Below are positions 8,330 through 64,000 of a stretch of 64,000 nucleotides of DNA, one piece after another. Source of the stretch: Daphnia pulex (Eukaryota; Arthropoda; Branchiopoda; Diplostraca; Daphniidae); contig NC_060025.1 of NCBI RefSeq assembly GCF_021134715.1, positions 9,362,001 to 9,426,000 on the forward strand, read 5' to 3'. The stretch's first letter is position 1; every line of letters begins with the position of its first letter. Both the position numbers and the translations under genes were made by a program. Below the pieces are notes generated by a model. The model was not told the origin of the DNA and ran no database searches. It saw only the letters and a list, made by a program, of their open reading frames with translations.

Positions 8330-8803
8330 TCAACCTATTTTATTTTTTAACTTGTTAAAAAATTGTTTGGTCTTCATCCCGGCTCTGTACCACAAATTGT
8401 TTTCGTCACGTTTTTGTCGTTCTTCGTCAGCAGATGATTCGTTGGGTGTTCCAAATCTCCATCCATAAGGATTCGATCCGTACCTTGGGCAAGGCGACCT
8501 GAAGCATCTTGTCGAACGATTGTTAGCTTCATTTTGGTGTTCATCTTGAGACTTCAAGTCTTGATTGACTGTCGAATTATTGCAAGTTTTTTTAATTTGG
8601 TTTTTTAATTGTTTTATTATGTCGACTTACGCGATGATTCTGCGTTTTCCAAACTGACGGGATTGGCTGAAGCACCTGCAAGAATTAGTATTTTTAAATT
8701 TAATTGGATTACATTCTTATTCGTAGATTAAAGTACCTGCGATGATTGAAACTGTGGCGGCTAAAAGAAAGAAGTAAACGACCTTCCGCTTGTTGGATGG
8801 CAT
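8330..8803 (-). CDS. Small secreted peptide precursor 1 (candidate amidated host-defence peptide)
   Basis: Three exons: 8803-8737, 8675-8631 and 8568-8330, with both introns in phase 1. Exon 1 encodes a signal peptide (MPSNKRKVVYFFLLAATVSI then IAG). Exon 2 adds ASANPVSLENAESS. Exon 3 carries a polar propiece, a segment with two cysteines (RCFRSPCPRYGSNPYGWRFG), an acidic stretch ending DEERQKR, and a basic C-terminus that includes KTKQFFNKLKNKIG just before the stop. Cleavage after QKR followed by Gly-directed amidation would release a peptide of about 24 residues and net charge near +4. The architecture matches secreted antimicrobial peptide or neuropeptide precursors; I recognise no named family. 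It is the first of four tandem relatives and the only one with the two-cysteine segment. Confidence 0.72.
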
Positions 8804-8960
8804 TCTGTCGTGACCGTCCAGGTAGGTCCGCTCCAAGTTTCAAAGTGAATAGAGTTAATAATCTATGTGGCCTTTATGCAAGCTCTTGCGTTTTTAACTC
8901 ATTTATATTTTTGGCCTATCACAGAATTTGACTGTTTCCTGTGGTTGTGTTAATTGCAAT

Positions 8961-8975
8961 GAGGAAACTGTGGTT
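8961..8975 (+). promoter_or_regulatory. Conserved upstream element of peptide gene 1 (GAGGAAACTGTGGTT)
   Basis: It lies about 160 bp upstream of the gene 1 start, inside a longer block shared with gene 2 that includes GTTGTGTTARTTGCAATGAG. TGTGGTT matches the Runx/Runt core and TTGCAAT resembles a C/EBP half-site. Genes 3 and 4 have GGAAATTGTGG upstream. Factor assignment is inference. Confidence 0.45.
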
Positions 8976-9453
8976 CAACATTTTGATTTCCTCTTATTTA
9001 TATCAACACCTTAATAATTGTGGTTGGAAAAAAATCTTATTATTCTGGGATTGTTGTTTTTAAAATTATTGTTTTGAATATCTCTTGTTTCAAGGAGAAA
9101 ATTGTTGTCGCCACGGGTGAAACTTGCTGACTTATGCGGATGGCAACATACCAGCGAAAGGTCTCGCTTATTCATGGAAAAATTTAACCGAGTTCTAATG
9201 TGTTTTTACCCTGTCCTACGATAGGGGTATTTATCCGGCAGAAAATTAATGGTAACTAAAGTTTACTCATCCTTATTGATTCTTAACGCCAATTTGAATT
9301 CCATTTTATTTGATAGGTTGTTAAACAAAATAGTGATATGAATGAATGAAGGAAGACGAGAATTTATATTCTGTTGTCAACAGATACTCTGATTAACTCA
9401 ATGGAATCGTTATGCAACATGGAAAAGGCAGCAACTTTATTAGCGCGTGTCGA

Positions 9454-9861
9454 TCAACCTGCTCTATACCCATTTATAAAATGTTTGACGTTCACGCCGA
9501 CTCTGTGCCAAAATGGCTGCTGCTGTCGTTGTAGTCGTTCTTCGTCATTAGATGATTCGTTAGGTGTTTCAAATTCCGATTTATTTTCCCATCGTTGTTC
9601 ATCTTGTAATTCCAAATCTTGATTGACTGTTGAGTTATTGCAAAGTGTTATTAATTTGGTTGATTAATTTTTTATCATGTTGACTTACGCGATGATTCTG
9701 CGTCTTCCAAACTTACGGGATTGGCTGAAGCACCTGCAAGAATTAGTATTTTTAAATTTAATTGGATTACATTCTTATTCGTAGATTGTAGTACCTGCGA
9801 TGATTGACAGTGTGGCGGCTAAAAGAAAGAAGTAAACGACCTTCCGCTTGTTGGATGCCAT
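9454..9861 (-). CDS. Small secreted peptide precursor 2 (candidate amidated host-defence peptide)
   Basis: Three exons by direct homology to gene 1: 9861-9795, 9733-9689 and a last exon from about 9627 to 9454. The signal peptide is nearly identical (MASNKRKVVYFFLLAATLSI then IAG) and exon 2 gives ASANPVSLEDAESS. Exon 3 reads through FETPNESSNDEERLQR to QQQPFWHRVGVNVKHFI then NGYRAG and stop. The two-cysteine block of gene 1 is missing, by a deletion that keeps the frame. Removal after LQR and use of the terminal Gly for amidation would give a peptide of about 22 residues, basic with several His. The acidic propiece and final Gly match the other three genes. The function is inferred from architecture only. 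Confidence 0.68.
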
Positions 9862-10019
9862 TCTGTCGTGACCGTCCAGGTAGGTTCACTTCAAGTTTCA
9901 AAGTGAATAGAGTTAATAATCTATAGCCTCTATATACTAACCCCTTGTGTGTTTATGCAGTTATGTTTTTTTAATCACAGAATTCGACGACTGTTTTCTG
10001 CGGTTGTGTTAGTTGCAAT

Positions 10020-10034
10020 GAGGAAACTGTGGTC
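10020..10034 (+). promoter_or_regulatory. Conserved upstream element of peptide gene 2 (GAGGAAACTGTGGTC)
   Basis: It has the same word and the same distance (about 160 bp) from the start codon as in gene 1, within a duplicated promoter block. It contains TGTGGTC, a Runx-type core. Confidence 0.45.
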
Positions 10035-10565
10035 CGCCTCTTGATTTGGTATTTGAATCTCTTGTTTATCAACACCACAACATTTATGGTTGACAATTAA
10101 TGATATTCTCCTCTTAATAAGAAAATTGTGGTCGCCAACTTATTTTGTTTGAATTGTTAACTTGTCGAGATAAAAATAATCTCTAATTTAATTGAAGGAA
10201 ACCAAAATGAAAAATGCTGACGAGATGCCGATCGCGACATTCCATCTTAGGTTTAATGGAAAAATTTCACTTTAAGTTTTAATGTGTTAATACCTGCCCT
10301 ACGATGGTAAAAAAAAAAGTCTTATACCTAAGTTAAGGAAGGGACATTTCGGAATTGGATATAAGCAGTATAGTCTATTTGAATGAAAATTGTATGTATA
10401 TGCTTACAGGCATACGAGTTCAACATCCTTACAGATTTTGAAAAATTTGAAGAGAGATTAGGAAAAATGGCTAGCCGGAAAAAAGTTTGGATCGTCAAAA
10501 TCACGAACAACAATGTGCAAATAGACTTTTTATAAATCCGGGTAGATAGCATTTTCGTGAAAAGA

Positions 10566-10915
10566 TTAGCCCAAAAATCCACCTAAGAAATTTTTGATGT
10601 GTTCCCAGAAACGCTCCTCTCGTTCGTAATCTGTTGAATCGCTTATTTCTCGTTCTATTCCACAAAAATATTAACAAATTATTTTCTTTCAACAATGTGA
10701 AATTGACTTAACAAAATTGCATACCAGCACGTAATTCGCCTTCAGACAAATCGAACGGACTTCCCAGGACACCTGTTTTTAATGAAAATCTCAATTAATT
10801 TCAAATTTTATTTAGTAAACCAAATTAATTTCTTAAATTTCAAACCTTGAAGGATGAAAAGAGTCATCGTAATGAATAGCCAATAAGCGAAGATCCCGGT
10901 GGAGGAGGCCATCAT
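10566..10915 (-). CDS. Small secreted peptide precursor 3 (temporin-like architecture)
   Basis: Exons 10915-10846, 10772-10725 and 10654-10566, again with two phase-1 introns. The product is about 68 residues. It has a signal sequence (MMASSTGIFAYWLFITMTLF then ILQG), a short acidic propiece (SPFDLSEGELRAEREISDST then DYEREER), and a C-terminal peptide FWEHIKNFLGGFLG. The layout of signal, acidic propiece, basic cleavage site and a 10-14 residue amphipathic peptide ending in Gly parallels frog skin temporin precursors. That is likely convergence, not homology. Genes 3 and 4 form a closer pair, yet they share exon phases, exon sizes and the (D/E)EER propiece signature with genes 1 and 2. Confidence 0.66.
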
Positions 10916-10998
10916 ATAATTTCACGTCTGAACGGTGCTGGATTTCGAACAAGAATACGAAGAAAGTTTGTTCCATTTTAGAATTTCTCCGTTTCAAG

Positions 10999-11012
10999 TG
11001 GAAATTGTGGCC
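10999..11012 (+). promoter_or_regulatory. Conserved upstream element of peptide gene 3 (GTGGAAATTGTGGC)
   Basis: GGAAATTGTGG lies about 85 bp upstream of the gene 3 start, the same distance as in gene 4. It corresponds to GGAAACTGTGG of genes 1 and 2. Confidence 0.4.
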
Positions 11013-11423
11013 GCCAAATTTTGGTTATGTTTGTAAATCTTTTACTTACCCAAATCAAAATAATCTCTAATCACTGAAGGAAACCAAAATGAGAAATGCT
11101 GACTAGATGCTGTTTGTGTCATTTAAGCTAAAGCTCTCATTTATTGATGGAAAATTTAACTTCCAACATTAACTTCTAAGTTCTAATGTGCTATTTACCC
11201 TGCCTACGTTAAAAAAGGGATAATTTGGAGGCGGGTTGAAGCAGTAGTATATTTGAATGATAATTGCGTGTATGTATTATTGATTGTATGGGATAGGAGT
11301 TCAATATTCTACCAGATTTGGAAAAATTGAGTAGAGTTTAGCAAACAGATTGAATCGTCAAAATCACGAATAGCAATGTCCAACAAAAATCTTGGAATTC
11401 CAGGTGGATTTAACTTTAAGCGA

Positions 11424-11764
11424 TTAGCCAAAGAGGAAATCTTTGATGTGTTTCCAGATACGCTCCTCTCGTTCGTAATCGGTTGGATCGCCTACTTGTC
11501 GTTGTATTCCCCAAAAATGGTTTTATAAATTAGACTTTCTTTAAACAATTAGAATTTGACATTTTTAAAATTATACATACCAGCACGTAAATCGTCTTCC
11601 GAAAACTCGATCGGACTCCCCACGACACCTGTTTGTAATGAAAAATTCCATTTACTTTATTTAGTAAACCAAATTAATTTCTTAAATTCCAAACCTTGAA
11701 GGATGAACAGAGTCATGGCAATGAATAGCCAATTAGCGAAGACCCCGGTGGAGGAGGCCATCAT
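11424..11764 (-). CDS. Small secreted peptide precursor 4 (temporin-like architecture)
   Basis: Exons 11764-11695, 11628-11581 and 11494-11424. The signal sequence differs from gene 3 at only a few sites (MMASSTGVFANWLFIAMTLF then ILQG), followed by VVGSPIEFSEDDLRA. The splice acceptor used in gene 3 (AATAG) is AATAC here. An AG nine bases further on (AACGACAAG) restores an in-frame junction and shortens the propiece by three residues. The peptide after YEREER is IWKHIKDFLFG, so the predicted mature form is about 10 residues with a terminal amide. If the alternative acceptor is not used, this copy would be a pseudogene. Its intact exon 3 frame argues that it is functional. Confidence 0.6.
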
Positions 11765-22365: not shown

Positions 22366-24246
22366 ATGATGATTTCACAGACGACTCGACTCCTCCTCCT
22401 TCCTTTACGGAAACAGGTTACAAGTTTAAATTGTTGCCTTCAATTAAATTCTGTTCTAAACGGTTTCGTGTTTCTCATTTAGCTTACTTGCACGGTTCGT
22501 GCATCAGCAGTAGTGATCCCAGTAAAATCGTATCACACTCCAGCGTTTTCATCCATTTTCATCAGCCAGAGCAGAGTATCAAAGCTTATCGTCAAAGATT
22601 TCAATGTGAAATTTTGTAGTTCAAGGCAGCTGAGCCTTTCGTCTTATTCAAGGAATGGGGCACCACTGGGAGGAATTTCATCTGCAGCCGCAGTAACAAC
22701 CACCAACTCTTCAGTAAATTTCTTTAATTGTTAAAGGTCCCAAAAACGTTTTAACCTTTTTTGTTTTGTTTGACAGGAATTCATTGATATACCTGCTCCT
22801 CCAGTGCCAACATCAACAACATTAGAGACACTGTCAGATGCAGTTTCCTCAAGCAGTTTAGCAGAGCCCGCTTTTACAGAAATCGGGTTGGGAGGAATGT
22901 CCCCAAGTGGTCTGATCCAGAGTATTTTGGAATGGTTACATATTGGTGTGGACCTCCCTTGGTGGGGTTGCATTGCCATAGGTAAATTTTCTCAACTGAG
23001 TGGTACCATGGCAAGGATGATAAACTAAATACAACAATACTTGTAGGAGTCTTTACTGTCCGTACACTCATGTTTCCCCTGGTAATTAAAGCCCAGAGAA
23101 ATGCAGCCAAAATGACAAACAACATGCCACAACTGCAAGTCCTTCAGCAAAAAATGACTGATGCCAGACAGGCAGGAAATGCCATGGAAGGTATGTTGTT
23201 CACTACACAGGTTCCAAGTTTTTTTTCTCTCTATTTAGAATTTTCAAATTATTTTTGCGTCGTTTTGAAGCTGCACGGATGGGTTATGAAATCCAAAGTT
23301 TTATGAAAGAGAAAGGACTCAATCCCTTAAAAAATCTAATGGTGCCTCTTATTCAGGTAATAACTTAAAGTTTGTAAAATTGTAATCATCAATATATTTC
23401 ACAAAGACTTTTTTCTTTACAGGCACCAGTATTTATGAGTTTTTTCTTTGCCTTAAAAGGCATGGCCAATGCTCCAGTAGAGAGCATGCAGTACGGAGGA
23501 TTGTTTTGGTTTTCCGATCTTACAGTCTGTGATCCTTATTACATACTCCCTATGCTAACTAGCGTTACAGTGTGGGCTACAATGGAGGTATGTCTTCGTT
23601 TTGTCTTTTGATTCGACAGTAGAATTCTAAATCTTTTTGGCGTATTACAGTTGGGAGCGGATTCCGCCAAACTCTCGTCTCAAGGCTTTCCCCTGTTAAT
23701 TTATTTCTTCCGAGCCATCCCATTCATCATGTTCCCCATCACGATGAATTTCTCAGGAGTGAGTTGTATTAGTGCCTGATTTTTAAAAGGAGAACCAGAT
23801 TTTTACCACAATTTATTTCTAGGCTATTCTGTGCTATTGGTTGACGACTAATGTCATTTCACTCGTTCAAGTCGGTTTCCTTCGCCTTCCCAAAGTCCGA
23901 AGCTATTTCGATATCGATCCGATAGTTGTTGTTCAGCCAGTTAAAGGTGCTGGACCCAAAAAAGGATTCGTGGAGGGAATGAAAGAAGGTAAGTGCCGAT
24001 TTATTTTTAATGCATGGTTTTGTTGATGAATTAAAAATATTAAAACATAACTTTTTAAACATTTCAGCTTGGAATAATCAGAAAATCACCGCCGAACTTA
24101 ACGATCGCCAGCGTCTTATTGATTCAAATTTCAGACGTGCGGGTACTGGTCCAATTCAGAAAACTTATTCCTACAATCCAACAGCAGCACCGAAAGCACA
24201 GGAACTAGTCCAGAAAGGTTTCAAACAAACGAAGAAATCCGTGTAG
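22366..24246 (+). CDS. OXA1L: Mitochondrial inner-membrane insertase OXA1L (YidC/Oxa1 family)
   Basis: Exons 22366-22416, 22483-22713, 22777-22981, 23047-23190, 23271-23356, 23423-23587, 23651-23758, 23823-23988 and 24068-24246 join in frame. The N-terminus is rich in Arg, Ser and Leu with few acids, as expected for a mitochondrial targeting signal. The Oxa1 core follows: [35 protein letters not shown], then a coiled matrix loop, [20 protein letters not shown], the segment [19 protein letters not shown] (typical of the family), and further membrane helices. The C-terminal tail is basic ([10 protein letters not shown]), in line with ribosome contact. It inserts mitochondrially encoded proteins into the inner membrane. 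The ATG at 22366 is followed at once by a second one at 22369. AATAAA at 24353 is a likely poly-A signal. Confidence 0.94.
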
Positions 24247-58457: not shown

Positions 58458-58767
58458 GTAGAAAATGTAATAGGGATGTTCGGCGTGTCGGGCCGTTTAC
58501 TTACAGTTTCCAAGTTGAATAAATTAGACACGAACAAAACCGTGTCTTTTACCTCTCGTCTATTTTAACACACTGAATATTGTACAGTAAATTGGGGGGG
58601 AATAAACAATAGGGGGGTAGGGAAACAACGACTGAATTTGGGGACCAACGACTGAATTTGGGGCCACCTATCGGGGGCCCCCAAGGCAATAGTCGCGTAG
58701 GTGCGCCGGTGTTGTTGTGCGGCGCCCTGATCTCGTCGTCGTCTGTTGGAATGGAATATTCCTAACA
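58458..58767 (-). repeat. Putative 3' LTR of the BEL/Pao element (310 bp)
   Basis: On the minus strand it begins TGTTAGGAATATTCC at 58767, right after a purine-rich GGTGGGGAGTG that looks like the polypurine tract. It ends TTTCTACA at 58458, so it has TG..CA ends. Inside, a 20-bp direct repeat based on AACGACTGAATTTGGGG (plus strand) starts at 58626 and 58646. The partner 5' LTR is outside the window, so the boundaries are a prediction. Confidence 0.55.
58626..58664 (+). repeat. Two-copy 20-bp tandem repeat inside the LTR
   Basis: AACGACTGAATTTGGGG occurs at 58626 and again at 58646, with a 3-bp spacer (ACC). It may mark an LTR regulatory repeat. Confidence 0.7.
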
Positions 58768-61700
58768 CACTCCCCACCAGAGCCCGTAGCATCCGGCTCG
58801 ACATCTTCGACGACGTCTTCCGGTTCTTCGGGAGCTGGCATAGCGTCTCCGATAGCGAGATCGATTTCTGGTTCTGGCAGAGTTGGATTTGGATCCTCTT
58901 CCGGCTCCTGGATCGGTTCCGGATTTCCAATTTCGACGTCTTCGGCGAGATCTTCTCGCAGCTCTATAGGGTGAAGACATTGAATGGCTCTATTAATTAA
59001 ATTACCATTTGGAATCTTGAGCATGACAGAACGGATGAGTCCGTCGCGGCTTGGAATCAGTTCCTTCACTACTCCGGTAGACCACATGAGTCGTTTGGAG
59101 TGTTCGTCGTGGATAACAACGACTTCTCCTAGGCGGATCTTCCTTCCGGATTTTCCTTTGGAGTGGAAGTTGTCTAGTTGGAGTAGATAATCGTCGACGA
59201 ATCTAGCACAGATGTCAGCGACATATTCCCTCCTGTTCTTGTCCATCTCTTGTAGTACGATGCTGGTCGATGTAGGATCCAGCAAGTTAACGGCTGGCTC
59301 CGGATCGGCACGAGTAGAACGTCTGTTGTTTAGAAATTGGTTAGGAGTTATCGGAAGTGGATCGTCAGCTCCTTCCCCAATATAGCTGAGTGGGCGGGCG
59401 TTGATTACGCTCTCGATTTCTGCTAAACTCGCTTCCAGTTCCATGTAGTCAAGGCAGGCTCGACCGTTGGAGCGTCGCAGCAGATCCTTGACGCTCCTCA
59501 CCATCCGTTCCCAGAATCCTCCCCACCATGGCGCTAGGCTGGCGGAAAATATCCAAAGGGTTTTTCTGGACGCGAGAAAGTCTTGAATGATGGGATCGGC
59601 GTGAATAGTTCTCAGGAATCGGTCGACACATCGGAACGTTTGCGCGTTGTCCGAATACATCACTGAGACGGGTCCTCGTCTAGCTGCGAATTTTCGAAAG
59701 GCTAGTAAGAAGGAACGCGCCGTCATATCGGGTAGTAGTTCCAAGTGAACCGCTCGAGTGACTGCACACGTAAAAAGACAAACATAACTTTTAAGATGGT
59801 TCGTTTTCTTAGCTTTAGTTGTTGTTATTAAGATGTCTTGGATTTCGACATCTTCTTCGACTGAATCCTCTTCGCCTACGATTAGAGCTTCGATTGGAGC
59901 GTCTCCTTCAGCGGGTGGCTCCTCGATTCGCTCTTCAGTTGGATCGTCTGCTGGCGTCGGATCCTGGACGCTTGGTGGAGCTTTCCTTTTCTTCCTTCGC
60001 TGTGCTGGTTTGTACAGCAGTGGTCCAGCGAAATCGACTCCTGTAACGTGAAAAGATTGCGCATGTTTGAGTCGGTTTAAAGGAAGAGGGGCTGCTAGTT
60101 CTTGCTGTCGTCCTTTAACTATCCAGAATTTTTCTTTTAACTCGGATAGTGTTACTTTTGCTCCTGCATGTAGTAGTGACTCGTGTTTGTCTGTAATTAA
60201 GAAAGTGATTACTATATGTGATGCAGGAAGCAAAATTGGGGGATCGATGTTTCTATCTCTTAGGGCAAGTGATACTCTCCCATGGATTCGAACGAGACGG
60301 TCTCTGGCGTCCCAGATTGGAAAAAGTGCAGCGATTTTCTCCTTGGGCTGGATTGTGTTGTCTAACTGTAGCGATTCAAACGCCTTAGGATACCGCTCTC
60401 GTTGGAGCTGTCTGTAGATCGTTAGTTCCGCTTCATCCAGCTCCTCTCTGGATAATCTTGTAATCCGGATAACTTTTCCACTTCCTTTTCCATCTGGTCC
60501 AATTGCCTTTATCGACTCCATTCGTTCTGGACCGGGAGGTCTGAGCTTCTTTTGACTCCTGCTGAGGAATCGTGAGACCCAGGCTGTACGTCTTAACAGT
60601 CGATTCCAGGTGGAAATTTTGTCGAGATTCCAGTCGACGGAGGCTGTTGGAATTGCGATGGCTGCTGTTGTGCTGACCGTCGTACTCCTAGCTTCCGATT
60701 CCATTTCGGACTGGATTGTTTGTGGAATTTGGTCGTTGGGAGAATCTGGCCATTCCGTTTCTTCTCCTTTGAGCCAAATCGGGCCGTTCCACCAAAGAGT
60801 TGAGGTTACCAGCGTTGGCGCTGGCGCTCCCCGCGAGGCAAGATCGGCCGGATTTTGGAGACCTGGACAGTGTCTCCACCACTCGGGTTGTGAAAATTTT
60901 CGTATCGTCTCCACTTGGTTTCGGACGAATGGTTTCCATTTGTTCGGCTCTCCTCTAATCCATCCTAGTGCAACCAAGGAGTCTGACCAGTAGATAGTTC
61001 TCCAATACTGGACTTGCATTGCATTTTTTACGACTTCACCTAAACGTACGGCTAAAAGTGAGCTCAGCAATTCTAAACGCGGTAAAGTTACTTTTTTCTT
61101 AGGTAGAGGTGCAACTCTCGTCTTGCTGGCCAGTAGGATGATGAGTGGATCTTCTTGTCCTTTTTGGAGTCGGGCGTAGGCTACGGCTCCATACGCTGCT
61201 TCAGAAGCGTCTCCGAAGACGTGAATTTCGTGAGAAGTGACTTTTTCGGATAGTCCGATCCATCGTGGAATTTGTAGTTCGGTGAAATCGGCGAGACCAG
61301 TCATCACTATCTTCCAAGATTTTTGGATATCGGCTGGAGCTGCTTGGTCCCAACCTATCTCCTTTTCCCAGAGCTTCTGGTAAATAATCTTTAATAAAAG
61401 TACAGTGGGAGATAAAAATCCAATTGGATCAAAAATTCTTGCCGAGATACTGAGTATCTTTCTTTTGGTGATTTCCGTTCCCACTTCTTCCACTGCTTGG
61501 ATGATGGATGCTGGGTCGAATTTGAACGAATCGGATCCGGTGTCCCACCGGATTCCTAACACCTTCTGTTGGCCGTCCAAGGCTGGGGAGAGTAGGCCTA
61601 CGACTTGATTCGACAGTCCTTTCTCCTTCAGGTGTTGTTTGAGGTCTTCGTTGTTGGTTGCCCAGCTTCTCATGTTGAGTTGGGCGTCACTAAAGATCTC

Positions 61701-64000
61701 GTCCGTCTCATCGACTCTTTTCTTGGCGATTGATAAATTGTTTGCTCCGCCGAGGTAATCGTCAACGTACAAACTTTCTTCCAGCTGTTGAATAGTTTCT
61801 GGAAAACGAGACTTTAGTGATTTGAAATGTTTGTTAATTGTAACACGTAGGAGAAAGGGGCTAGAACTAAGGCCAAAGGGCACTCTCTTCCACTTGTAGG
61901 CAATTAGAGGCGATCCAGCCACTGCTGGATCCCTGGGCCATAAAAACCTGATTGCTTCGGCATCTTCCGGCTGCAGGGCGATGTTTAGAAAAGCCTTTTC
62001 AATGTCGGCAATCCAGGCAATCTCGTACTTTCTGAAGCGTATTAGCACTGATAGGAGATCCGGATTGAGATTTGGTCCGGTCTCCAACACGTCGTTCAGA
62101 CTTGGGCCGAATTTCGTTTTTGCTGCTCCATCAAAGACGGGTCTGATTTTCGTCGTTGATTTGTCGCCTCTGAAGATCGGATGATGTGGGAGATAGGTGT
62201 GAAGTTCTTCGTAGTCCATGTTCGCCTCCTCGACGAATTTGCTGTCGATGAGCTTTTGGATTTCTGCGTGGTAATTCACCAAGTCTCCTGGATTTTTTCT
62301 CAATCTTGTTATTGTGCTTTCCACTCTTCCGGTGGCCAACGGGAGATTTTTCTGAAGTCTCCACTTGTCAGTTGTCCAAGGGATCGGTGTACAGTATCTT
62401 CCATCTGGCCATCTCGTTATTTTTTCGTCAAAGAAATCGAAGCGATCATCCGATTCCACTGCATCAGCGCCTTCAAGGTTCGCAAAATTTTCTATTTTCC
62501 AGAAAAGAGAAAGGTCGAAATTAGCAGCAACTTGTTCTTCCTTCTCAAACCATTTACTATCTTCTTCTCCGCTGGATCCGATTGGGGCATCTGAGAATGA
62601 CGCTCCTATTGGCGTAGTTTGGGGACTGGCCGTTCCAGTCTCCTTTTCCATCGGAGTTTTGTTTGCTTGAGTTGAAAGGATTTTTCTTTTTTGGCTACTT
62701 GTCGCGAATGTTGACGTAATCTGTGGAATCGGGTAACTTGATGTTAAAATTAAATTTTGGATTACTTGAGTTCCTGTCTTCGATTTTGCTTCTTGAGATG
62801 GTCCAGCAATCATTCTTCCGAGTTTCGTTTGAAACGCGCGCAATCCGCATGGACTCTGTATGGCGGCTTCATTCGACATGATCTGGAACATCTGGTCCAT
62901 TCCGACTAAAATTCCAATTGGCTGATCTTCGGTGTGTGCCATCTCGAATCTGTCGTCGGCCAATTTTTCGTTTTGGATCCAGAGGCTGTTTGCAAATTCG
63001 GATCCTACGTACGGGCCGGTATCTGAAATGTGATCCGATTCTAAAGCCATTAGTGTAACTTTTGGGGCGCCTTGCCAGGTGCCCCTTACTTGCATTTCGA
63101 CGTTTTTTGTCATTTCGGGCTTGTTGGGTTCCTTTTTCTTAAACACTCTTGTGCTGATGTTTTCCACCGCTACTGTCTTCATGTTAAGTTGCGATGAGAG
63201 TGATTTCAGCACCCAAGAACGATGACTTCCGTCGTCTGCAAATAAAATCGCTCTTGTTTCGTTACCGTTTTGGCCGCTGATGATGACTGTTGCCGTTTTC
63301 AGCATCAATTGTCCAAAGCTGCTTGCACAGGCTGTGGTTGTCAAAGTTGGATCGCTGGCCACGATTATTGCTGCTGTTGTGGGATTGGTGACTCTGACGT
63401 CTCCTTTGTCGCAGAGAGCGGTGTGGTGCCTCCCTCCGCACTTGTTGCAGTTCCGGGCGGATGTGCAATCCTTCAGCGCGTGTTTGTCTCCAAAACAGTT
63501 GACGCACCTTTTCAAATCAAAGATTATCTTTTTCCTTTCCGTCAGCCCTTTCGGACATTTTGTCGGCCAGTGAATTTGGCTGCAGAAGATGCAGGGCCTT
63601 TCGCACACAATCCAACTTGGGTTAAATTTAACGTTTTTATTTTTTAAGGCGGATTTAACCTGAGGAGCTGGACTTGCTTTGGCTCCTACTGCCAATTGTG
63701 ATGCTGTTGCCGGCTGTGGATTTGCCGGTTTGGGCTGTTTAGGAGCTGGAGACGATTTCTCCTTTTCCACACCTTTGATTCGGTTGAACCTTTCGGCCGC
63801 GTCGATTTGATCTCCAATGAATTTGATGACCATCTCGATGTCCGTTGATTTGTTTGTTGGCGATTTTGCCCATTCTTGTTGGAGCCTGGTAGGAATTAAT
63901 TTGATTAATCTTGCTCCGAGGAGTCCGCCAAAGGAACTTGTGGGGACTCCTAACGTTTCCAACGCGCTAATGTGCGATTGGAGATTCAGCTGGAAGCTCC
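58668..64000 (-). CDS. BEL/Pao retrotransposon gag-pol polyprotein, 5' end beyond the window
   Basis: One open frame of more than 1,770 codons runs off the window edge. The upstream frame stays open (FQLNLQSHISALETLGVPTS), so the true start is outside. Order of parts: Pao-type gag, three zinc knuckles (CIFCSQIHWPTKC, CVNCFGDKHALKDC, CNKCGGRHHTALC; about 63400-63610), a retropepsin-like DUF1758 domain with ADDGSHRSW near 63240, reverse transcriptase with YVDD at 61758-61769, RNase H (GDAS, about 61203-61214; SDSLVALGW), then integrase with VDFAGPL, YSDNAQTF and WWGGFWERMVRSV. The integrase zinc domain keeps the His part but lacks the CxxC segment. A long acidic insertion lies between the first Asp block and KSYVCLFTC. 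The last 33 codons lie inside the predicted LTR. The frame is free of stops, which suggests a recent insertion. Confidence 0.9.
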   Translation of the reverse strand, partial: SFQLNLQSHISALETLGVPTSSFGGLLGARLIKLIPTRLQQEWAKSPTNKSTDIEMVIKFIGDQIDAAERFNRIKGVEKEKSSPAPKQPKPANPQPATASQLAVGAKASPAPQVKSALKNKNVKFNPSWIVCERPCIFCSQIHWPTKCPKGLTERKKIIFDLKRCVNCFGDKHALKDCTSARNCNKCGGRHHTALCDKGDVRVTNPTTAAIIVASDPTLTTTACASSFGQLMLKTATVIISGQNGNETRAILFADDGSHRSWVLKSLSSQLNMKTVAVENISTRVFKKKEPNKPEMTKNVEMQVRGTWQGAPKVTLMALESDHISDTGPYVGSEFANSLWIQNEKLADDRFEMAHTEDQPIGILVGMDQMFQIMSNEAAIQSPCGLRAFQTKLGRMIAGPSQEAKSKTGTQVIQNLILTSSYPIPQITSTFATSSQKRKILSTQANKTPMEKETGTASPQTTPIGASFSDAPIGSSGEEDSKWFEKEEQVAANFDLSLFWKIENFANLEGADAVESDDRFDFFDEKITRWPDGRYCTPIPWTTDKWRLQKNLPLATGRVESTITRLRKNPGDLVNYHAEIQKLIDSKFVEEANMDYEELHTYLPHHPIFRGDKSTTKIRPVFDGAAKTKFGPSLNDVLETGPNLNPDLLSVLIRFRKYEIAWIADIEKAFLNIALQPEDAEAIRFLWPRDPAVAGSPLIAYKWKRVPFGLSSSPFLLRVTINKHFKSLKSRFPETIQQLEESLYVDDYLGGANNLSIAKKRVDETDEIFSDAQLNMRSWATNNEDLKQHLKEKGLSNQVVGLLSPALDGQQKVLGIRWDTGSDSFKFDPASIIQAVEEVGTEITKRKILSISARIFDPIGFLSPTVLLLKIIYQKLWEKEIGWDQAAPADIQKSWKIVMTGLADFTELQIPRWIGLSEKVTSHEIHVFGDASEAAYGAVAYARLQKGQEDPLIILLASKTRVAPLPKKKVTLPRLELLSSLLAVRLGEVVKNAMQVQYWRTIYWSDSLVALGWIRGEPNKWKPFVRNQVETIRKFSQPEWWRHCPGLQNPADLASRGAPAPTLVTSTLWWNGPIWLKGEETEWPDSPNDQIPQTIQSEMESEARSTTVSTTAAIAIPTASVDWNLDKISTWNRLLRRTAWVSRFLSRSQKKLRPPGPERMESIKAIGPDGKGSGKVIRITRLSREELDEAELTIYRQLQRERYPKAFESLQLDNTIQPKEKIAALFPIWDARDRLVRIHGRVSLALRDRNIDPPILLPASHIVITFLITDKHESLLHAGAKVTLSELKEKFWIVKGRQQELAAPLPLNRLKHAQSFHVTGVDFAGPLLYKPAQRRKKRKAPPSVQDPTPADDPTEERIEEPPAEGDAPIEALIVGEEDSVEEDVEIQDILITTTKAKKTNHLKSYVCLFTCAVTRAVHLELLPDMTARSFLLAFRKFAARRGPVSVMYSDNAQTFRCVDRFLRTIHADPIIQDFLASRKTLWIFSASLAPWWGGFWERMVRSVKDLLRRSNGRACLDYMELEASLAEIESVINARPLSYIGEGADDPLPITPNQFLNNRRSTRADPEPAVNLLDPTSTSIVLQEMDKNRREYVADICARFVDDYLLQLDNFHSKGKSGRKIRLGEVVVIHDEHSKRLMWSTGVVKELIPSRDGLIRSVMLKIPNGNLINRAIQCLHPIELREDLAEDVEIGNPEPIQEPEEDPNPTLPEPEIDLAIGDAMPAPEEPEDVVEDVEPDATGSGGECVRNIPFQQTTTRSGRRTTTPAHLRDYCLGGPR

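Follow-up and report, generated by a model that had tools for sequence, protein, structure and literature searches.

The linear cytolytic peptides of spider venoms are released from precursors that comprise a signal peptide, an anionic propiece, a Glu-rich site with a single Arg, a helical peptide, and a Gly residue, as outlined in PMC7889660. In the same account, the cleavage site is a 'processing quadruplet' motif with Arg at position -1 and Glu within positions -2 to -4, which a specific venom protease recognizes, and the Gly is used for amidation (PMC7889660). For the crustacean Daphnia pulex, published surveys found no antimicrobial peptides (PMC2685406, PMC4833078, PMC5437397). In the parts of these surveys that bear on the question, McTaggart et al. 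2009 (PMC2685406) gives no PGRP for D. pulex, PMC4833078 reports Defensin2 domains from Ixodes and Mesobuthus alone and cautions that such peptides, being small, are hard to detect by similarity, and PMC5437397 records ALFs and crustins as absent from D. pulex. Here, a locus at positions 8330-11764 (minus strand) of a 64,000-nucleotide window of the D. pulex genome is described (assembly GCF_021134715.1, contig NC_060025.1, positions 9,362,001 to 9,426,000; coordinates without a genome handle are those of the window). It holds four genes, g1 to g4, which are probably precursors of linear, amidated, amphipathic, membrane-active host-defence peptides of Daphnia. Molecules of this kind are known, but had been reported missing from this lineage.

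Gene models and layout of the precursors

The initial annotation of the locus proposed a tandem family of four minus-strand genes with three exons and both introns in phase 1; spliced models of this common design were obtained for all four, and its coordinates were exact to the base. Gene g1 (11424..11764, 62 amino acids), a paralogue of g2, has its signal-peptide exon at 11764-11695, exon 2 at 11628-11581, and exon 3 at 11494 (or 11491)-11424, where the acceptor is ambiguous by 3 nucleotides, either CAAG or CAAGTAG, the latter read by eye and in frame. The exons of g2 (10566..10915, 68 amino acids) lie at 10915-10846, 10772-10725, and 10654-10566, those of g3 (9454..9861, 94 amino acids) at 9861-9795, 9733-9689, and 9626-9454, and those of g4 (8330..8803, 116 amino acids) at 8803-8737, 8675-8631, and 8568-8330. 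From g1 to g4, exon 1 measures 70, 70, 67, and 67 nucleotides and exon 2 measures 48, 48, 45, and 45 nucleotides, so that both introns are in phase 1 in every gene; exons 1 and 2 each stop one base into a codon and exon 3 provides the remainder. The introns, of 61-86 nucleotides, are of the GT-AG type, with a weak intron 1 donor in g1/g2 (GTTTGG/GTTTGA). Poly(A)-like signals are present 3' of all four genes (AATAAA after g1, g3, and g4, ATTAAA after g2), which is weak evidence in AT-rich DNA.

All four models display the prepropeptide plan that had been proposed, with a signal-peptide exon, a tiny second exon, an acidic propiece, and a short C-terminal peptide. Exon 1 encodes a signal-peptide-like stretch, judged by eye from its hydrophobic core and a V-x-G or A-x-A ahead of the cut, and the acidic propiece spans exon 2 and continues into the beginning of exon 3. 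The propiece ends in DEER in g3 and g4, as in the (D/E)EER motif that had been claimed for the whole family, whereas g1 and g2 carry EREER. In every gene, an Arg occupies position -1 of the predicted cut and at least one Glu lies at positions -2 to -4; this cleavage motif fits the spider 'processing quadruplet', a point missed by the initial annotation. Moreover, all four precursors end in a Gly immediately before the stop, an amidation donor that had also been overlooked, compared with a background rate of 5% for Gly in that place. The residues after the last EREER or DEER are IWKHIKDFLFG in g1, FWEHIKNFLGGFLG in g2, LQRQQQPFWHRVGVNVKHFINGYRAG in g3, and QKRDENNLWYRAGMKTKQFFNKLKNKIG in g4, with the stop directly after each, and the predicted mature peptides are IWKHIKDFLF-amide, FWEHIKNFLGGFL-amide, LQRQQQPFWHRVGVNVKHFINGYRA-amide, and (QKR)DENNLWYRAGMKTKQFFNKLKNKI-amide, respectively. 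From g1 to g4, the net charges of the propieces are -6, -6, -11, and -3, assuming the signal cut placed by eye, and those of the peptides after EER are +1, 0, +4, and +6. The g3 and g4 peptides are longer and cationic, and those of g1 and g2 are short, weakly charged, and Trp-bearing.

All four predicted mature peptides show amphipathicity with the periodicity of a helix, a further point that the initial annotation did not contain. Their Eisenberg moments at 100 degrees fall within the top 4.2, 5.4, 2.9, and 1.9% (g1 to g4) of background peptides, drawn from 1319 stop-ended frames of the window with at least 30 codons each, and the g1 peptide reaches a moment (muH) of 0.60. When angles from 60 to 180 degrees were scanned, the maxima were located at 95, 95, 100, and 100 degrees, the propieces peaking at 110, 110, 175, and 130 degrees; among background peptides, 13-15% have their maximum at 90-105 degrees. 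Shuffling of the residues gave p values for amphipathicity of 0.077, 0.012, 0.067, and 0.025 for g1 to g4, respectively.

The propiece of g4 contains, in addition, an in-frame extra stretch of 60 nucleotides (8467-8526, exon 3) that is not in g3 and for which a DNA search found no second place in the genome. It encodes an aromatic, basic segment and two Cys, and there is no Cys in g1 to g3. Such a stretch would be understandable if, with the frames right, activity resided in the entire secreted protein or in some other part of it, such as the two-Cys stretch itself. However, it occurs in g4 only and the C-terminal features occur in all four genes, and very little credence can be given to this explanation.

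Duplication, divergence, and coding signal

The four genes are tandem duplicates. At the DNA level they form the pairs g1/g2 and g3/g4, with best pieces of 479 and 538 bits, respectively, and the pairs are also connected to each other. A block upstream of g2 (11002..11123, minus strand) matches one upstream of g3 (10123..10241, minus strand, aligned as 10241-10123) over 124 columns with 77% identity (E 2.8e-22) and 91.5 bits, compared with 29.2 bits for the best of 100 random 1-kilobase control blocks from the window when aligned to the g2 unit. A further block of 35.6 bits is common to the g2 and g4 units, and the g1 unit gave nothing above control level against the g3 and g4 units (27.4 and 24.7 bits). 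Whole-protein similarity between the pairs has p values of 0.0005 (g1/g3), 0.0005 (g2/g3), 0.001 (g2/g4), and 0.026 (g1/g4), which become 0.11, 0.005, 0.013, and 0.029, respectively, when exon 1 is left out. In the C-terminal part alone, g2 resembles g3 (p 0.001, 2000 shuffles), and the other cross-pairs have no clear similarity (g1/g3 p 0.13, g1/g4 0.16, g2/g4 0.09). The pairs, said earlier to differ greatly in the mature region, are thus not unrelated there, and the frame logic said to unite the pairs is indeed kept, although they have more than that in common. Because of the DNA blocks and the protein-level similarity between the pairs, a single ancestral unit most likely gave rise to the array, and its two subfamilies later diverged in length and charge.

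Divergence between g3 and g4 is 3-5% in exon 1, intron 1, and exon 2, 13% in intron 2, and 28% in exon 3, and reaches 30% upstream and 29% downstream in the flanking DNA. Exon 3 is more diverged than the pooled introns (28% versus 8%, p 1.4e-5) and does not differ from flanking DNA (30%, p 0.77). The low-divergence tract includes introns and covers the 5' half of both genes (9620-9896 versus 8562-8838), with divergence rising on both sides, and its unusual similarity is likely to come from gene conversion or exchange between copies. In the mature region, the non-synonymous (dN) and synonymous (dS) divergences are 0.595 and 0.455 for g3/g4, where 18 of 26 aligned residues differ, and 0.205 and 0.224 for g1/g2. 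The earlier view that the mature region evolves fast is only half right, because exon 3 of g3/g4 keeps the pace of the flanking DNA and the 5' half is too similar; with dN/dS not significant, the term 'fast-evolving' is not supported and positive selection was rejected as a claim. The features kept among the copies are the open frame, the cleavage motif, the Trp, K-x-F, the final Gly, and amphipathicity.

These divergence patterns also bear on whether the genes could encode precursors of amidated regulatory peptides, namely neuropeptides or gut or tissue hormones acting on receptors. A signal peptide, a propiece, a single Gly-ended C-terminal peptide, and the dibasic KR of g4 would all fit such hormones. 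Nevertheless, g3 and g4 disagree in their mature part at the 18 of 26 residues mentioned above, all four peptides have little in common beyond the Trp, K-x-F, and the final Gly, the cut common to the family follows EER rather than KR, and an amphipathic helix is predicted in all four. No known neuropeptide family was recognized in g1 to g4, although no neuropeptide library was searched, and a hormonal role seems unlikely compared with host defence.

It could also be argued that the locus consists of decaying or never-translated tandem repeats that look gene-like by chance. The divergence of g3/g4 exon 3 at the level of the flanking DNA, with dN close to dS, would suit decay, as would the weak intron 1 donors of g1/g2 and the coding sequence of this pair, which at 12% is not clearly less diverged than its introns (25 of 145 sites, 17%; p 0.16, no significant difference). 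However, four open three-exon frames speak against decay, and so does the divergence of g1/g2, which amounts to 22 of 189 coding sites compared with 150 of 457 sites in the flanks (33%; p 9e-9). In addition, the three exonic length differences found in the DNA alignments (60, 6, and 9 nucleotides) are all multiples of 3 and therefore in frame, versus 7 of 26 outside exons, two of these 26 being at alignment edges. The exon-3-end pattern ((D/E)EER or EREER, then Trp, then Gly-stop), a post hoc one defined after the genes had been seen, has four matches in the six frames of the window, all at g1 to g4, whereas 30 Markov controls gave a mean of 0.03 and a maximum of 1 per 64 kilobases. Without the Trp there are five matches, the fifth being outside the cluster (30243, plus strand), and a looser pattern returned 14 rows, several of them nested and 4 outside the cluster, with a control mean of 1.0. 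Taken together, decay deserves little credence, and the host-defence precursors described above are the preferred reading of the frames.

Upstream regions, neighbouring genes, and searches for relatives

The 400 nucleotides upstream of g3 (9862..10261, minus strand) and of g4 (8804..9203, minus strand) each contain three matches to RACCRCA (RUNX-type) on two strands, compared with a background of 0.22 per 400 nucleotides, and CCACAGTTTCCTCATTGCA is found in them at 10014-10032 and 8955-8973, respectively. Since the two genes are duplicates, this evidence counts about once. RACCRCA is the RUNX motif and RUNX has a role in haemocytes; these sites could bind RUNX factors. The upstream motif CCACARTTTCCTCATTGCA was also considered as a mark of co-regulation and was rejected, as it has 22 places in the genome with at most 2 mismatches, is exact only at g3 and g4, and has 17 of the 22 places within one repeat on C10. 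In that region, CCACAGTTACGTCATTGCA occurs 17 times on one strand (G000:C10:8295343-8980431), with a spacing of 5.8 to 16.7 kilobases and one gap of ~516 kilobases; these copies form an array of a repeated gene or element.

A thioester protein (TEP) gene (plus strand, ~13756 to at least 21330) starts ~2 kilobases from g1 on the opposite strand, with MG3, bait-region, and TED domains and a GCGEQ motif, MG2 remaining below the cut-off. TEPs are described among arthropod immune genes in PMC2685406, and their adjacency is weak evidence for immunity. Downstream of the TEP gene, an exon at 22986-23303 (plus strand) resembles OXA1/YidC insertase, with 29.6 bits for a family cut-off of 35. The other flank of the cluster holds a stathmin gene and an Arm-repeat gene, which we take to be ARMC8-like. 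The TEP neighbour and the RUNX-type sites point weakly to immunity, against the idea of secreted membrane-active peptides with a non-immune use, such as protection of eggs or the brood chamber or deterrence of predators or epibionts. The architecture is that of cytolytic spider venom peptides, and sequence cannot separate these uses from immunity; we know of no venom or repellent gland in Daphnia, and a non-immune use appears improbable.

At the far end of the window, a single unbroken frame of at least 1776 amino acids (58668-63998, minus strand) has Pao peptidase, reverse transcriptase, and DUF5641 matches and represents a BEL/Pao-type retroelement. Elsewhere, this animal genome contains a GH7 cellobiohydrolase gene (G000:C11:2006746-2008422), with further GH7-family matches on C1, C7, and C8 and 30 exon matches in total; one GH7 exon matches PDB chain 4xnn_A, of a Daphnia pulex enzyme, at 1.8e-75 and is identical to it at 112 of the 117 aligned residues, and the next-best chain scores 2.7e-43.

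The genome searched for relatives comprised 133,188,837 bases in 13 contigs. Weaker matches to the family on C10, C5, and C2 (E 0.14, 5.1, and 5.6) have no (D/E)EER/EREER...Gly-stop frame in the ~3.2 kilobases inspected for each. No Pfam family exceeded its cut-off, with three chance-level matches (E 0.064-0.2), in agreement with the earlier remark that no named family could be recognized. Pattern matches in IMG/VR (11 for g2 and 27 for g3) and, with an alignment of the four proteins, in GTDB genomes (102) were in no case confirmed. In the PDB, neither g1 nor the mature peptides of g3 and g4 had a sequence match at E <= 10, and the four-protein profile returned one ribosomal protein at chance level (E 0.27). 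The open-access matches listed in the literature search, a scope outside which subscription journals, patents, and RefSeq annotation lie, include no description of the family, and no open-access paper matched a phrase for Daphnia antimicrobial peptides. In the D. magna-Pasteuria transcriptome study (PMC4551569), the passage with 'antimicrobial' refers to another animal.

Proposed function and comparison with known systems

Host defence, the role initially suggested, is the likeliest reading of a plan with a signal peptide, an acidic propiece, and Gly-stop, of amphipathic peptides, and of a spider-like motif. The signal peptide of exon 1 would direct the precursor to secretion, the acidic propiece would neutralise it, and an endoprotease would cut after the Arg of EREER or DEER, and in g4 perhaps also after KR. 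A peptidylglycine monooxygenase would then convert the last Gly into the amide, and the peptide set free in this way, 10 to 27 residues long, would form an amphipathic helix on microbial membranes and disrupt them. We infer this sequence of secretion, cleavage, amidation, and membrane insertion, and with it an antimicrobial role, from the spider-like plan and from the Cu2_monoox_C domains of the genome, for which C3, C7, C10, and C12 together carry 14 exon matches over the cut-off. The short g1 and g2 peptides could be weak alone and may act together with the cationic g3 and g4 peptides; temporins are likewise short and nearly neutral.

Several observations weigh against a host-defence role. 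The g1 and g2 peptides are nearly neutral before amidation, and the best 11-residue stretch is no better than shuffles in g3 and g4 (p 0.45 and 0.22) and only marginal in g1 and g2 (p 0.077 and 0.052); moreover, as g1 to g4 are related, the peptide tests are not independent. An excess of amino-acid change is not significant, the bootstrap interval of dN minus dS including zero in six of six regions. RACCRCA is absent upstream of g1 and g2, and kB-type sites are limited to one upstream of g1, with none upstream of g2 to g4, so that regulation through kB sites was rejected. In the genome, no further copies were found beyond the four on C9 among the best candidates scored, and no relatives were confirmed in IMG/VR or GTDB or found in the PDB beyond chance level. 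Finally, a Cu2_monoox_C match does not tell the amidating enzyme from its family relatives.

A broader and rather doubtful proposal is that the locus represents the missing antimicrobial-peptide arm of Daphnia, made up of cladoceran-specific linear, amidated, helical peptides with their own spider-like Glu-Glu-Arg maturation signal and two subfamilies, one short and near-neutral and one longer and cationic, which might act together. Under this proposal, g3 and g4 would be driven by RUNX rather than kB factors and would therefore be constitutive in haemocytes. Constitutive haemocyte production, if true, would suit an animal for which no PGRPs are given (PMC2685406, PMC4833078). With exons defined and peptides predicted for four candidate genes, what kills microbes in Daphnia becomes a directly testable question.

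Among known systems, frog temporins and dermaseptins combine an acidic propiece with a short amidated helical peptide, the propiece ending in KR; g1 to g4 are crustacean rather than vertebrate genes and have no match to the frog signal/propiece Pfam family at E <= 1. Cecropins are linear, helical, and amidated, with a Trp near the start and no Glu-Glu-Arg propiece. They were rejected as relatives, since g1 to g4 have no match to PF00272, and the two matches of a genome-wide search (E 6.2 and 9.4) lay below the cut-off and away from the cluster. Malacostracan ALFs and crustins are secreted crustacean defence peptides but are cysteine-based, unlike the Cys-free g1 to g3, and a crustin, ALF, or penaeidin identity was rejected because the conserved cysteine framework is missing and there is no such Pfam match at E <= 1. 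In scorpion precursors, the propiece comes after the mature peptide. The scorpion peptides of the IsCT/pantinin type, likened here by description, are short and amidated, as predicted for g1 to g4, and short antimicrobial peptides of scorpions generally have 13-25 amino acids and are amidated (PMC11289363).

There is also a likeness to the linear cytolytic peptides of spiders, such as latarcins and cupiennins, with which all four genes have the quadruplet motif, the C-terminal Gly present in most of the spider families, and an anionic propiece in common, next to a signal peptide and a helical peptide as predicted here. The likeness was drawn from the plan of the precursors, which in g1 to g4 are crustacean and simple, with one peptide each, and in many spider genes are complex. 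If the proposed maturation is true, Daphnia would provide a further example, apparently independent of that in spiders, of precursor cleavage at a Glu-rich site with a single Arg.

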